Shown: positions 9,904-13,684 of the stretch, piece by piece
Layout: each line of letters begins with the position of its first letter
Numbering within the stretch: position 1 is the first letter of the stretch
Assembly (NCBI GenBank): GCA_031180805.1
Contig: JAPSLL010000042.1
Coordinates: forward strand, 1-36,276
Source: Bacillus sp. (in: firmicutes)
GTDB taxonomy: Bacteria > Bacillota > Bacilli > Bacillales > Bacillaceae
Direction: 5' to 3'
DNA length: 36,276 nucleotides
Made by a program: the position numbers and the translations under genes
The notes under the pieces: model-generated
What the model was told of the DNA's origin: nothing
Database searches by the model: none
Seen by the model: only the letters and a program-made list of their open reading frames with translations

Positions 9904-11124
9904 ATGGATCCATTAGATATTATGTCAAATATGGAAAAGGTTATACCATATTATCAAGCCATCTTTAGTGCTGATGAACAAAGGGTCATTGGTTATGAAA
10001 TATTAGGTAGAATCGAGCTTAATCAAAATGAAATTAAAAGTCTAGGTTCATTTTTTCAAGATGATAATATACCAGATGATTTTCGAGTAGAGGTAGATGA
10101 TTGGATCGTTAATAAAGCGCTAGATGAATTTTTGCAGCTAAAAGATTCAGAACTTTTAATCTTTATAAATCGTGATGCTAATCTTCTCATGCTTGATCAC
10201 GGTGAAAGCTTTCTCGAAATTCTCCTCGAAAAACAGAATCAAGGTTTGAAGTTAAATCAAGTTGTAATCGAGATGAATGAACATAATTTCCGTGGAGATG
10301 TTGATCAGCTTTATCATTTATTAATGTATTACAAAACATATGGAATCAAAATTGCAATCGATAATATTGGGAAAGCAAGCAGCAATTTAGATCGAATAGG
10401 CCTGCTATCACCTGATATTTTAAAAATAGACTTACAGCCGTTGCGTATGACATCACCTTTACAATCTTACTATGATGTTCTTTATTCCATTTCACTATTA
10501 GCAAGAAAAATCGGTGCGACCTTGCTATATGAGGATATTGAAGTGAACTTTCAACTTCAATATGCATGGAAAAATGGTGGGAGATATTATCAAGGTTATT
10601 TTTTAGAGAAGCCAAAAAGACAATTTATTCATCGAGATGATTGTAAGGAAAGGTTGAGAAATGAATTTCAGCTTTATATTTCATCTGAAAAAAAGAAGCT
10701 TGAAAAACTTCACCATTTTACTGAGAACTTTCATGAGCGAATCCACCAATTAATAGCAAAATTAGGGAAGCAATATGAAAATTATGATGAATTATTAGCT
10801 GAATTAGCAGTTCATTTAGATGATTGTAGTTTTAGAATTTATATATGTGATGAGGACGGTTTTCAACAATCAGTGAACATATATAAAAAAGATGAATGGG
10901 AAGTTCAACCGGAATATTATTTAAAAAATTGGAGTTGGCGTCCTTATTTTTTAGCTAATATTATGAAAATGCGTTTTGATAAAAAAGGTTTTTTAAGTGA
11001 TGTATATAGTGATATTGAGAAGGGGGATTTAGTTCGCACTTTTTCCTATCCTTTGAGTCAGGATCATTATCTATTTATTGATTTGTCCTATGAATTTTTG
11101 TATGAACAGGAAAGTTTATTGTAA
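9904..11124 (+). CDS. ykuI: EAL-domain c-di-GMP binding protein YkuI
   Basis: 406 residues. Residues 12-245 form an EAL domain: GYEILGR (Glu32), FINRDAN, IEMNEHNF, ILKIDLQPL, YEDIE and QGYFLEKP. The usual DDFG is DNIG at 153-156. A helical linker follows, then a PAS-like C-terminal domain (about 290-400). B. subtilis YkuI binds c-di-GMP, but phosphodiesterase activity was not detected, to my recollection. It is therefore probably a receptor or a very weak enzyme of the cytosol. Start ATG 9904 follows GTGAGGGG. It precedes a small membrane-protein gene on the same strand by 83 bases. Confidence 0.92.
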   Translation: MDPLDIMSNMEKVIPYYQAIFSADEQRVIGYEILGRIELNQNEIKSLGSFFQDDNIPDDFRVEVDDWIVNKALDEFLQLKDSELLIFINRDANLLMLDHGESFLEILLEKQNQGLKLNQVVIEMNEHNFRGDVDQLYHLLMYYKTYGIKIAIDNIGKASSNLDRIGLLSPDILKIDLQPLRMTSPLQSYYDVLYSISLLARKIGATLLYEDIEVNFQLQYAWKNGGRYYQGYFLEKPKRQFIHRDDCKERLRNEFQLYISSEKKKLEKLHHFTENFHERIHQLIAKLGKQYENYDELLAELAVHLDDCSFRIYICDEDGFQQSVNIYKKDEWEVQPEYYLKNWSWRPYFLANIMKMRFDKKGFLSDVYSDIEKGDLVRTFSYPLSQDHYLFIDLSYEFLYEQESLL

Positions 11125-11207
11125 GGGCTATACTTAAGAAGGAAATGAAATCCAAAGCATATTCCTAATCATTCTGAGGTATCTTACGTATTAAGGGGTG
11201 AAATGGA

Positions 11208-11447
11208 ATGAGCAATTTTACAACGATTCTTTTTGTACTAGCTCTAATAATTTCCTGTGTTAGTTTAATCTATACGTTTAAAGTTGGACGGACTGTAAGT
11301 GACAGAAGAGCGAAACAGGATAGTCAAATAAGCGAAAAAGTTCAAGCACATCCATATATAAGAAATCCGGTTTTTTTAGCATTTTTAATAGCAGGTATTC
11401 TATCTCTAGCATATATCTTTTATCTTGCTTATACAATCAGTTGGTAA
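11208..11447 (+). CDS. Small two-segment membrane protein, unknown
   Basis: 79 residues. Hydrophobic segments at about 5-25 and 54-75 flank a charged loop containing GRTVSDRRAKQDSQISEKVQ and HPYIRNPVF. Start ATG 11208 follows GGGGTG. I do not recognise a named family. It lies 83 bases after ykuI and ends at a strong terminator whose stem begins immediately after the stop codon, so it is probably co-transcribed with ykuI. No function can be assigned. Confidence 0.75.
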   Translation: MSNFTTILFVLALIISCVSLIYTFKVGRTVSDRRAKQDSQISEKVQAHPYIRNPVFLAFLIAGILSLAYIFYLAYTISW

Positions 11448-11473
11448 CAGCGGAAGAGTTCCGCTGTTTTTTT
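11448..11473 (+). terminator. Terminator after the 79-residue membrane protein
   Basis: CAGCGGAA-GAG-TTCCGCTG followed by seven T residues; the stem begins directly after the stop codon. Confidence 0.92.
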
Positions 11474-11592
11474 ATGAAGGCACTGTGGAAATTATCGTTA
11501 ATCTTTATCTCTACGTTTGACTTTATTTATCACGGCTTAAGTTACTATTAATAAATACTATAAATTAATAGAAAAAAGTTAGCTAAAAAAGG

Positions 11593-11621
11593 TTGACATT
11601 GAAACTGATAATCATTATCAT
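11593..11621 (+). promoter_or_regulatory. Fur-controlled sigma-A promoter
   Basis: TTGACA (11593-11598), 17 bp, TATCAT (11616-11621) is a near-consensus promoter. Over it lies a perfect 7-1-7 Fur box, TGATAAT-C-ATTATCA (11606-11620). Fur bound to Fe(II) would block RNA polymerase, so the promoter should fire under iron starvation. No plus-strand gene follows before a strong terminator at 11762. Confidence 0.88.
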
Positions 11622-11627
11622 TGTAAA

Positions 11628-11797
11628 TAAGAACAATAACTTTTCGATTTCTTGGTCAAATATATTTATGTTAGAGGATTTAACCCGAGTCTTCAATTAA
11701 CCAGGAATTTGATTAGTCATGCAACTCTCGATTTTCCCCCAAACCCCTTTTAATAGAAAGTGAAAAAGCTTGGCTGGTCACCAAGCTTTTTCTATGT
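11628..11797 (+). ncRNA. fsrA: Probable FsrA-type iron-sparing small RNA
   Basis: The Fur-controlled promoter drives a segment with no credible gene, ending at a 12-bp hairpin terminator. Near its 3' side is a C-rich, probably single-stranded tract, CCCCCAAACCCC (11736-11747), able to pair with G-rich Shine-Dalgarno sequences. In B. subtilis the Fur-repressed RNA FsrA lies, as I recall, between ykuI and ykuJ, the same place as here. The predicted length of about 170 nt exceeds the roughly 84 nt of B. subtilis FsrA, so the start site or processing may differ. Ends are predicted from promoter and terminator only. Confidence 0.7.
11762..11797. terminator. Bidirectional terminator, small RNA and glutaredoxin-like gene
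   Basis: GAAAAAGCTTGG-CTGGTCA-CCAAGCTTTTTC, a perfect 12-bp stem with T-rich sequence on both strands. It ends the plus-strand RNA and the minus-strand gene that stops at 11805. Confidence 0.9.
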
Positions 11798-11804
11798 TTT
11801 TGCT

Positions 11805-12044
11805 TTATTTTATCTCCAATAGCTCCTCAAGTTTTTGCAAATCAAAGCCTATGACAATATTATCATCAACTGTCACAGTTGGCGTTGAAGTAGAAGATAG
11901 TTCATTTACTAAAATATCGCGAGCTTTCGAATCTATGCTTACGTCTTTTTCGCTGTATTCTATTTGATAATGATTTAAAAATTGTTTGACAATTTGACAT
12001 GGTGGACAGCTTGGTTGTGTATAAACAACAACTTGTTTTTTCAT
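11805..12044 (-). CDS. Glutaredoxin-like thiol protein (CPPC)
   Basis: 79 residues with one glutaredoxin/NrdH-type fold. YTQPSCPPCQIVKQFL carries a CPPC redox pair at the start of helix 1, and TSTPTVTVDD carries the cis-proline TP motif that binds glutathione or the substrate thiol. It is a cytosolic thiol-disulfide carrier; the partner is unknown. Start ATG 12044 lies behind AAAGGAG with 8 bases spacing. It is convergent with the Fur-controlled small RNA and shares its terminator. I do not assign a symbol. Confidence 0.85.
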   Translation of the reverse strand: MKKQVVVYTQPSCPPCQIVKQFLNHYQIEYSEKDVSIDSKARDILVNELSSTSTPTVTVDDNIVIGFDLQKLEELLEIK

Positions 12045-12329
12045 TACAGTTCTCCTTTTGTATAATTCCAATAAAAACGAATTAATATACGTTTAATATT
12101 GTTAAAAATGATGCCGAGATAATGAATAAAAATCGACAATTTTTTTATTTTGTAGAGAATAATAAAAGTTTTATTTGGTAATCCCTTAATACATAGTGTA
12201 AAATTGTAAAGGCACAAAGTAAAGATACTTATTATTGAAACATTATTTCGTGGATAAAATGTATGGTAGAGTATAACAATACGAATAGGAAACAGTTTTC
12301 CGTTAACTCTTCCGGAAGGGGGATATTTA

Positions 12330-12566
12330 GTGTCACAATTATTAGGAATTATTACAAGACTACAAAGTTTACAAGAAAATGCAGGTTCTGGTGAGCCTCT
12401 ACAACGTTTTTTTGAGGTTGAAGGTGAAAAGCGTTGCAGTGTGAAGTATTTCGATAAAACTAATACGTTTGAATTAGAGGTTTATCAAAAAGGCGAAAAA
12501 CCACAATCATACCAATTTGATAATATTGATATGATTGCGATGGAGATTTTTGATTTACTTCAATAA
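12330..12566 (+). CDS. ykuJ: YkuJ family protein
   Basis: 78 residues beginning with GTG 12330, 8 bases after GGAAGGGGG. The sequence (MSQLLGIITRLQSLQE, CSVKYFDKTNTFELEV, FDNIDMIAMEIFDLLQ) closely follows B. subtilis YkuJ as I remember it. The function of the family is unknown. It opens a run of small genes (ykuJ, zinc-ribbon gene, ykuK, abbA). The 12072-12329 stretch before it holds no gene; promoter elements there are unclear. Confidence 0.88.
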   Translation: MSQLLGIITRLQSLQENAGSGEPLQRFFEVEGEKRCSVKYFDKTNTFELEVYQKGEKPQSYQFDNIDMIAMEIFDLLQ

Positions 12567-12628
12567 GTATTAAGTATAATGTTGTTCGATTTAAGATGGT
12601 TCAAAAAACACGAGAGAAGGAGTCTATC

Positions 12629-12778
12629 ATGAGAAAAGATCCTAAAGTTATTTGCCCATTCTGTCAACAACAACAATCACTGTCAAAGACGTTAACAGCT
12701 CAATCAAATCAAAATGTCATCTTTACGTGCTCTCATTGTCATGAGTCAATTAAAAACATTGAGACAAGTAAAGGATAG
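12629..12778 (+). CDS. Small zinc-ribbon-like protein
   Basis: 49 residues from ATG 12629, which follows AGAAGGAG. Two knuckles, CPFC near the N-terminus and CSHC about 25 residues later, would bind one zinc ion. No family is recognised. It lies between ykuJ and ykuK and ends in a terminator whose stem starts just before its stop codon, so ykuJ and this gene form one unit. A role in nucleic-acid or protein binding is only a guess. Confidence 0.7.
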   Translation: MRKDPKVICPFCQQQQSLSKTLTAQSNQNVIFTCSHCHESIKNIETSKG

Positions 12779-12808
12779 TCATTCCAATTATGGGATGACT
12801 ATTTTTTA
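12775..12808 (+). terminator. Terminator after the zinc-ribbon gene
   Basis: ATAGTCATTCC-AATTA(T)-GGGATGACTAT, an 11-bp stem with one G-U pair, then TTTTTATTTT. Confidence 0.85.
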
Positions 12809-12943
12809 TTTTAATAAAAATAAAATTGAACGTGTTTACGCTCCTGTTTTCTTCAGATTCAACTCATATTTCAACTTATTGAAATCATATAATGCAATGA
12901 AAGGCAATTTTGACAAAAGCGGTTAATGATAAGGAGTAATGAT

Positions 12944-13462
12944 ATGAACGAATCTTTCACCTTTTATAATGTCTCAGAAAAGCGAATGTCATTTGCAACA
13001 GTAATCGAGCGTATAAAAGGCTTTTTGCTAAAAGATCCACGTTCAGAATATGTCCTATCGATTGGTTCTGATTCCCATGTTCATCATCAGGAGACAAAGT
13101 TTATAACAGCGATCCATATCCACCGTGTTGGTAAGGGAGCTTGGGGTTGTTTAAAGTTACATAGTGAAAAGAGGCCAATAGTAAGCTTAAGAGAGAAAAT
13201 TTCGATGGAAACGGCTCTTAGTCAAGAAATAGCAGCTTATTTTATATCTGATCATTTAAATGATTTAACAGACCTGTTAATTCCGTTTGTTCATGAAGGT
13301 GCTAATTTATTGTTTGAAATCCATCTTGATATCGGAAGAAAGGGTATGACGAAGGAGTTAATACAAGAGATGACAGGAAGAATAGAGGCGATGGGAATTG
13401 AAGCAAAGATAAAACCTGAATCATATACGGCTTTTAGTTATGCGAATCGATTTACAAAATAA
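12944..13462 (+). CDS. ykuK: YkuK, DUF458 RNase H-like protein
   Basis: 172 residues from ATG 12944, with AAGGAG 7 bases upstream. YVLSIGSDSHVHHQETKF and FEIHLDIGRKGMTKELI are conserved in the DUF458 family, predicted from structure to be RNase H-like. The acidic residues in SDSH and HLDIG could be its metal ligands. Biological role unknown. A TATAAT at 12888-12893 suggests its own promoter. abbA follows 33 bases later, so they are probably co-transcribed. Confidence 0.88.
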   Translation: MNESFTFYNVSEKRMSFATVIERIKGFLLKDPRSEYVLSIGSDSHVHHQETKFITAIHIHRVGKGAWGCLKLHSEKRPIVSLREKISMETALSQEIAAYFISDHLNDLTDLLIPFVHEGANLLFEIHLDIGRKGMTKELIQEMTGRIEAMGIEAKIKPESYTAFSYANRFTK

Positions 13463-13495
13463 AGGTTATGGAAAATTTTAATTTGTGGAGGAAAC

Positions 13496-13684
13496 ATGGA
13501 AACGACGCTAAAAAAATTAACCTTAGACGATAAACAATTATTAGCGGAAACGTTAATTAGCCAACAATATGCACTTGAAATCATAATCAGTGAGTTGAAT
13601 GATATAGAATCCGGGATAAAAAGGATGGATCAATCGAAGTATTTACAACTACTTACTCTTTATGAGAAATTAAGGATTCGGTAA
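13496..13684 (+). CDS. abbA: AbbA, antirepressor of AbrB
   Basis: 62 residues (B. subtilis AbbA has 65). The core YALEIIISELNDIESG and the end YLQLLTLYEKLRIR match AbbA as remembered, and the place between ykuK and ykuL is the same. AbbA is a small DNA-mimic that binds AbrB and frees stationary-phase genes; in B. subtilis its gene is under Spo0A control. ATG 13496 follows GGAGG. A terminator lies 60 bases beyond the stop. Confidence 0.85.
   Translation: METTLKKLTLDDKQLLAETLISQQYALEIIISELNDIESGIKRMDQSKYLQLLTLYEKLRIR

Follow-up and report, generated by a model that had tools for sequence, protein, structure and literature searches.

A candidate fsrA gene of Metabacillus and a block in its RNA complementary to the start of citB

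FsrA is a small RNA of Bacillus relatives that is made under iron shortage and shuts off iron-hungry enzymes. We analysed a stretch of 36,276 nucleotides (the window), a single contig of a 4.58-Mb assembly whose source genus was taken as Metabacillus, the genome being near M. niabensis. The window probably holds the fsrA gene of this species, with an RNA that would act by a two-part pairing mechanism, one part being its C-tracts and the other a block complementary to the start of citB (aconitase). The Fur box, the conservation of the locus, the complementarity and the co-variation with citB can all be read from the DNA itself. That a candidate RNA gene lies here, as the first-pass annotation had observed, is confirmed, and the strongest support for it is that promoter, box, core and terminator are conserved throughout the genus.

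According to Pfam matches, the RNA gene is preceded by the genes of an EAL and YkuI_C protein and of a 79-aa protein without clear family, and is followed by a convergent glutaredoxin gene and then by YkuJ (DUF1797). The location between ykuI and ykuJ given earlier thus agrees with the outer neighbours, but two extra genes, those of the 79-aa protein and the convergent glutaredoxin, lie inside. Glutaredoxin adjoins the RNA in all 20 syntenic loci, within whose 1.5-kb flanks the 79-aa gene was found in 18, YkuJ in 13 and YkuI in 9; FsrA of Bacillus (genus g2) likewise lies upstream of ykuJ. By DNA match among the genus genomes the closest relative of the locus is that of G010 (94% over 236 bases). 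The coordinates of the features are collected in Table 1.

Table 1. Features of the candidate fsrA locus in the window.
Feature	Positions	Strand	Remarks
Sigma-A type promoter TTGACA-N17-TATCAT	11593..11621	+	−35 at 11593-11598, 17-nt spacer, −10 at 11616-11621
Predicted Fur box, perfect 7-1-7, 15 bp, TGATAATCATTATCA	11606..11620	+	exact match to consensus
Predicted FsrA-type small RNA, ~165-170 nt	11628..11797	+	5′ end predicted from promoter
5′ hairpin (upstream arm and apex variable)	11628..11717	+	predicted fold only
citB block TTGATTAGTCAT	11709..11720	+	complementary to citB start codon and codons 2-4; to gltA start with a 3-nt bulge
sdhC block CAACTCTCG, in many relatives TAAACTCTCG	11722..11730	+	faces sdhC codons 5-8
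C-rich region CCCCCAAACCCC	11736..11747	+	C-tracts 11736-11740 and 11744-11747; conserved; predicted mostly unpaired
Intrinsic terminator	11762..11792	+	stem of 12 pairs on +, 13 on −

The promoter scores 11/12, the highest of 18 promoter-like sites at positions 10000-13500; since shuffled sequences yield 17.7 such sites, it is no evidence by itself. The Fur box is the only site in the window at up to two mismatches, and shuffling gives an expectation of 0.01 exact boxes per window (a single shuffle among 100 contained any). Both elements had been noticed on first reading and both were recovered at the same positions, the box being exact, so that the promoter contains a predicted Fur site as that of FsrA does. 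The −35/box/−10 arrangement is kept in 19 of the 20 syntenic loci, the exceptional one being L020 of G020; 18 of the loci have an exact box, L005 has a box with one mismatch, and L020 has none. The L020 copy also has degenerate C-tracts, and a Fur box does precede the second copy that the same genome harbors.

A DNA match of some kind was obtained in 21/21 genomes of the genus. In G004 it comprises no more than the Fur-box stretch of an iron-transport operon, upstream of its genes, no RNA copy being detectable there; the RNA gene was thus found in 20/21 genomes, in one of them as a copy that lacks the Fur box. A 3′ core of some 80 nt hardly changes between copies, whereas the stretch from promoter to core is variable, sequence and length varying most in the 5′ hairpin region. 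The predicted total length is 111-190 nt (19 copies), and the unusual length of the RNA is therefore explained by a variable 5′ hairpin before the core.

The predicted RNA folds at −38.6 kcal/mol (z −2.88; 2/200 shuffles equal). In the predicted fold the 3′ arm of the 5′ hairpin holds most of the citB block, which is mostly paired in 20/20 genomes (mean unpaired 0.27-0.45, a range that goes without shuffle control), and the C-tracts are mostly free in 18/20 (unpaired 0.60-0.94; G018 0.50, G020 0.46). Only 1 of 11 pairs in the core shows a double change, so the alignment provides no structural proof of the core fold; a consensus fold of alignment A2, in which promoter bases were paired, was set aside. 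The C-rich tract and strong terminator of the first-pass annotation were found again as two C-tracts and a stem of 12-13 pairs, i.e., a predicted single-stranded C-rich region followed by an intrinsic terminator, as in FsrA, and G-rich ribosome sites are the expected pairing partners of the C-rich region. At positions 10000-13500 there are five terminator-like sites (1.0 expected), and the one of the RNA could equally serve the convergent glutaredoxin gene. Its stem and loop (GCTTGGCTGGTCACCAAGC) do not differ by a single letter among 23 aligned copies, which is more than termination requires; the loop may therefore have some function of its own.

By position the locus is orthologous to fsrA, as a variant that falls outside Rfam model RF02273 as curated. 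The covariance search with this model, which had been suggested as a check, gave 19.5 bits at the locus and did not reach the cut-off of 80. The locus is the sole match in its own genome at E≤1, with none at E≤0.001, and in a scan of 401 bases OrzO-P, likewise below its own cut-off, had a better E-value than FsrA. At gathering score Rfam found nothing at the FsrA locus and only BsrC in the window (RF01410, 26117-26203 on the minus strand, 79.8 bits, cut-off 38). RF02273 exceeds its cut-off in 43 of 80 family genomes, all of genus g2 (43/44), and in 0/21 Metabacillus genomes, where its matches fall at the syntenic locus in at least 13/21 and at a second copy in three more. The matches in G004, G013, G008, G016, G072 and G028 have no Fur box (up to two mismatches) in the surrounding stretch that was retrieved and were taken as chance.

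Model R1, built from 23 Metabacillus cores and no Bacillus sequence, matched at E≤0.01 in 22 of the 80 family genomes, namely 20/21 Metabacillus genomes, G069 and G026. The match in G026, a genome of g2, has an E-value of 0.0026 and is the locus and strand to which RF02273 gives 88.2 bits. In G079, of a third genus (g6), an FsrA-like RNA (47.8 bits) has both the Fur box and the glutaredoxin neighbor and is an intermediate form between the FsrA of Bacillus and that of Metabacillus. These two sequences point to descent of the Metabacillus RNA from FsrA, and together with position, box, core and terminator they support the earlier view of an FsrA-type, Fur-controlled small RNA. The R1 match in G069 (39.4 bits), by eye a terminator behind a coding frame, was taken as chance, as was that in G011:C11 (35.5 bits). 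When, with an eye to other families, 30 ykuJ loci from 152 matching genomes were surveyed with 1.5-kb flanks, 29 besides that of the window, Fur box and C-tracts were seen in 7 of the 29 (all g2) and in none of the other 22; an RNA farther off would escape this survey since only the flanks were covered. The literature searched on FsrA and Metabacillus yielded no description of the Metabacillus form; annotation will miss fsrA in this neighboring genus because the Rfam model covers the Bacillus form only.

The first-pass annotation had called for a search for G-rich Shine-Dalgarno targets, and such sites were found: the ribosome site is GGGGG at citB in 20/20, at sdhC in 20/21 and at gltA in 20/20, as compared with 63/716 background starts (taken from 800 kb of G007 and used for the window's RNA too). 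In G004, which has no detectable copy of the RNA, the sites of citB and sdhC read GGAGG and gltA gave no match; this is suggestive and concerns one genome.

The annotation had also thought of extra pairing regions in a lineage-specific long form, and this has support in the citB block, whose reverse complement, ATGACTAATCAA, is the start of citB; the C-tracts beside it face the GGGGG ribosome site of citB. The longest Watson-Crick run between the core and its own citB is 11-18 in 18/20 genomes (12 in the window's), and 1/716 background starts have a run of at least 12. The exceptions are G017, where one pair is broken (run 9), and G020, which fits poorly (run 7). In duplex energy, which disregards competing structure, the pairing of the block with the citB start is equalled by 0/716 starts for the RNA of the window as well as for that of G007; with the whole core, a ranking that permits long loops, the numbers are 1/716 and 6/716.

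When own citB partners were compared with exchanged ones, 4/20000 and 7/20000 shuffles were as good, and 12/20000 when the untranslated side of citB was considered alone, from which it appears that, within the genus, the bases flanking the block change in step with citB. The own citB is best or tied in only 9/19 genomes, and with eight hand-drawn clades the partner fit is matched by 851/40320 shuffles.

The same block can be read with one codon bulged against gltA, which begins with ATGACTTACAATCAAAT in most copies and has ACT as codon 2 in 20/20; 3/716 starts are as good for the RNA of the window and 20/716 for that of G007. The next block pairs with sdhC in a run of 10-11 in 9/20 genomes, weakly in the window's own; on the coding side 0/716 starts are as good for G007 and 22/716 for the window's genome. 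With the whole core of the window's RNA, sdhC (equalled by 56/716) and gltA (50/716) are unremarkable, whereas sdhC is equalled by 1/716 in G007. Complementarity to the starts of citB, sdhC and gltA can thus be read from the alignments, strong for citB and weak for sdhC here. Co-variation with the RNA was found neither for sdhC (11071/20000 shuffles as good) nor for gltA (17662/20000). A composite pattern GGGG...ATGACT...AATCAA, written after citB and gltA had been seen, has 48 distinct sites, sorted by position, in 20/21 genomes (18 citB, 19 gltA, 7 in the RNA gene itself, on its other strand, 4 others) and in the window's own genome hits citB and gltA only; the reversed pattern, used as control, has 0 sites in the 21 genomes. 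The four other sites belong to proteins that are 110, 495 or more, 301 and 151 aa long and by eye have no link to iron.

Could the RNA be an ordinary FsrA, in which the C-tracts alone act and the longer 5′ part has arisen by neutral drift? The C-tracts and the GGGGG sites are conserved, the 5′ part varies widely in length, and sdhC and gltA do not co-vary with the RNA, all of which would fit. We nevertheless consider this unlikely: within the variable 5′ part the block TTGATTAGTC is invariant in 19/19 aligned syntenic copies and its 5′ neighborhood is not, and the citB complementarity stands above all 716 background starts and is accompanied by co-variation.

It is rather improbable, too, that the match to citB reflects a constraint on the N-terminus of aconitase or the A/T-rich early codons rather than pairing. 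The peptide MTNQ is indeed common to most citB copies, and its codons AAT and CAA are those in usual use (0.74 and 0.78). Codon 2, however, is ACT in 19/20 although ACT makes up 0.24 of the Thr codons near starts, and the Thr codon at position 7 varies; the non-coding bases before the ATG co-vary with the RNA; and citB of Bacillus is without the match.

A translated small mRNA or dual-function RNA is very improbable: the two short frames named before (ATG at 11669 and at 11719) are present and some relatives have an SD-like AGGAGGTG, but neither frame is conserved, single-base indels shift the frame within the core and the ATG at 11719 occurs in 5/19 aligned syntenic copies, so that the earlier statement of no credible gene in the transcribed stretch held when a conserved frame was sought. 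The SD-like AGGAGGTG lies in the variable 5′ part of L011, L015 and L017, where no conserved frame goes with it. Hardly credible, too, is a role as antisense RNA or 3′ region directed at the convergent glutaredoxin gene; terminator and neighborhood are shared and constant, yet the predicted RNA stops short of the region of the glutaredoxin stop codon, it is citB and gltA that its conserved blocks match, and six genomes carry a second copy elsewhere.

These second fsrA-like copies (L023, L024, L025, L026, L359 and L360, in G001, G007, G003, G017, G016 and G020) have a Fur box that is exact or has one mismatch, altered pairing blocks, and a position upstream of a Fur-boxed operon, which encodes a flavodoxin (PF00258) in G001 and a 252-aa protein without Pfam match at E≤0.01 in G007. 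The best lead to a target of their blocks, a LipA-like start (name by eye) with 10 bp, is weak because 6/716 starts have at least 10 bp. FsrA is known to go with Fur-controlled Fbp helper proteins; here genes of the FbpB-like family PF13040 occur in 20/21 genomes, the best hit being downstream of citB in each of the 20 (e.g., G000:C106:4467-4580), and none of 24 such loci examined has a Fur box at up to two mismatches.

For the FsrA with two-part pairing, which we prefer, we infer the following course of expression, iron control, pairing order, repression and mRNA fate. With iron present, Fur bound to its box, which lies between −35 and −10, would block transcription. At low iron the RNA would be made and end at its terminator, and the single-stranded C-tracts would be the first to contact the GGGGG ribosome sites of iron-enzyme mRNAs. 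The 5′ hairpin would then open and its 3′ arm, with TTGATTAGTCAT, zip onto citB from its start codon to codon 4; this order is suggested because the predicted folds leave the C-tracts free and the citB block paired. The two-part duplex would prevent ribosome initiation on citB, while the same block would read gltA with one bulged codon and the adjoining block sdhC codons 5-8.

As described in PMC8464778, pairing of FsrA has been shown in the cell only for gltAB and in vitro for sdhCAB, that with citB being predicted. Metabacillus would provide an independent, evolution-based case for direct FsrA-citB pairing, and TTGATTAGTCAT is a ready-made target for compensatory-mutation analysis.

Among the known systems RyhB and PrrF are alike as Fur-repressed iron-sparing RNAs, whose copies are duplicated in some species according to PMC9410917. 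No sequence match to them is claimed; the PrrF model gives 17.2 bits (cut-off 90) and covers the promoter only. RsaE/RoxS (RF01820) is likewise a C-rich small RNA, with 17.9 bits at a cut-off of 79, and RoxS is not known to have a Fur box. IsrR of Staphylococcus is described as Fur-controlled, C-rich and 174 nt long, with citB and sdhC among its targets (PMC9410917, PMC11257911), its gene being reported to have neither synteny nor sequence in common with fsrA (PMC9410917). By description its pair of Fur boxes and its three C-rich regions set it apart, the window having one Fur box and other neighbors.

The closest system is FsrA of the B. subtilis group (RF02273), with which the RNA shares the ykuI-ykuJ position, the Fur box in the promoter, the CCCC-AA-CCCC region, the CUUGG-type terminator and the predicted targets citB, sdhC and gltA. 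The lengths differ, with 84 nt given for B. subtilis (PMC12871923, PMC8464778) and about 165 for the window, and so does the predicted contact with citB. In Bacillus the AGATCAAGATC region of FsrA matches g2 citB upstream of the ribosome site (8-11 bp, 24/24 starts), whereas in Metabacillus the match is at the start codon; with g2 citB the Metabacillus block gives a poor fit, −8.9 to −14.1 as compared with −28.8 kcal/mol. At sdhC of g2 a 13-bp run with FsrA (ACTCTCTGTTCCC) was found in 17/24 starts, and the codons involved are those matched in Metabacillus too. For both g2 targets one FsrA sequence was run against 24 loci each, without background, sdhC of G027 being unparsed. The sdhC reader therefore looks old and the citB reader relocated. 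We lean slightly toward a relocation of citB recognition from the sequence 3′ of the C-tracts in Bacillus to a new block in the 5′ hairpin arm of Metabacillus, which would double as gltA reader, mRNA and small RNA having co-evolved at non-coding and synonymous positions, and six genomes having gained second Fur-boxed copies with a changed block beside another Fur-boxed operon.
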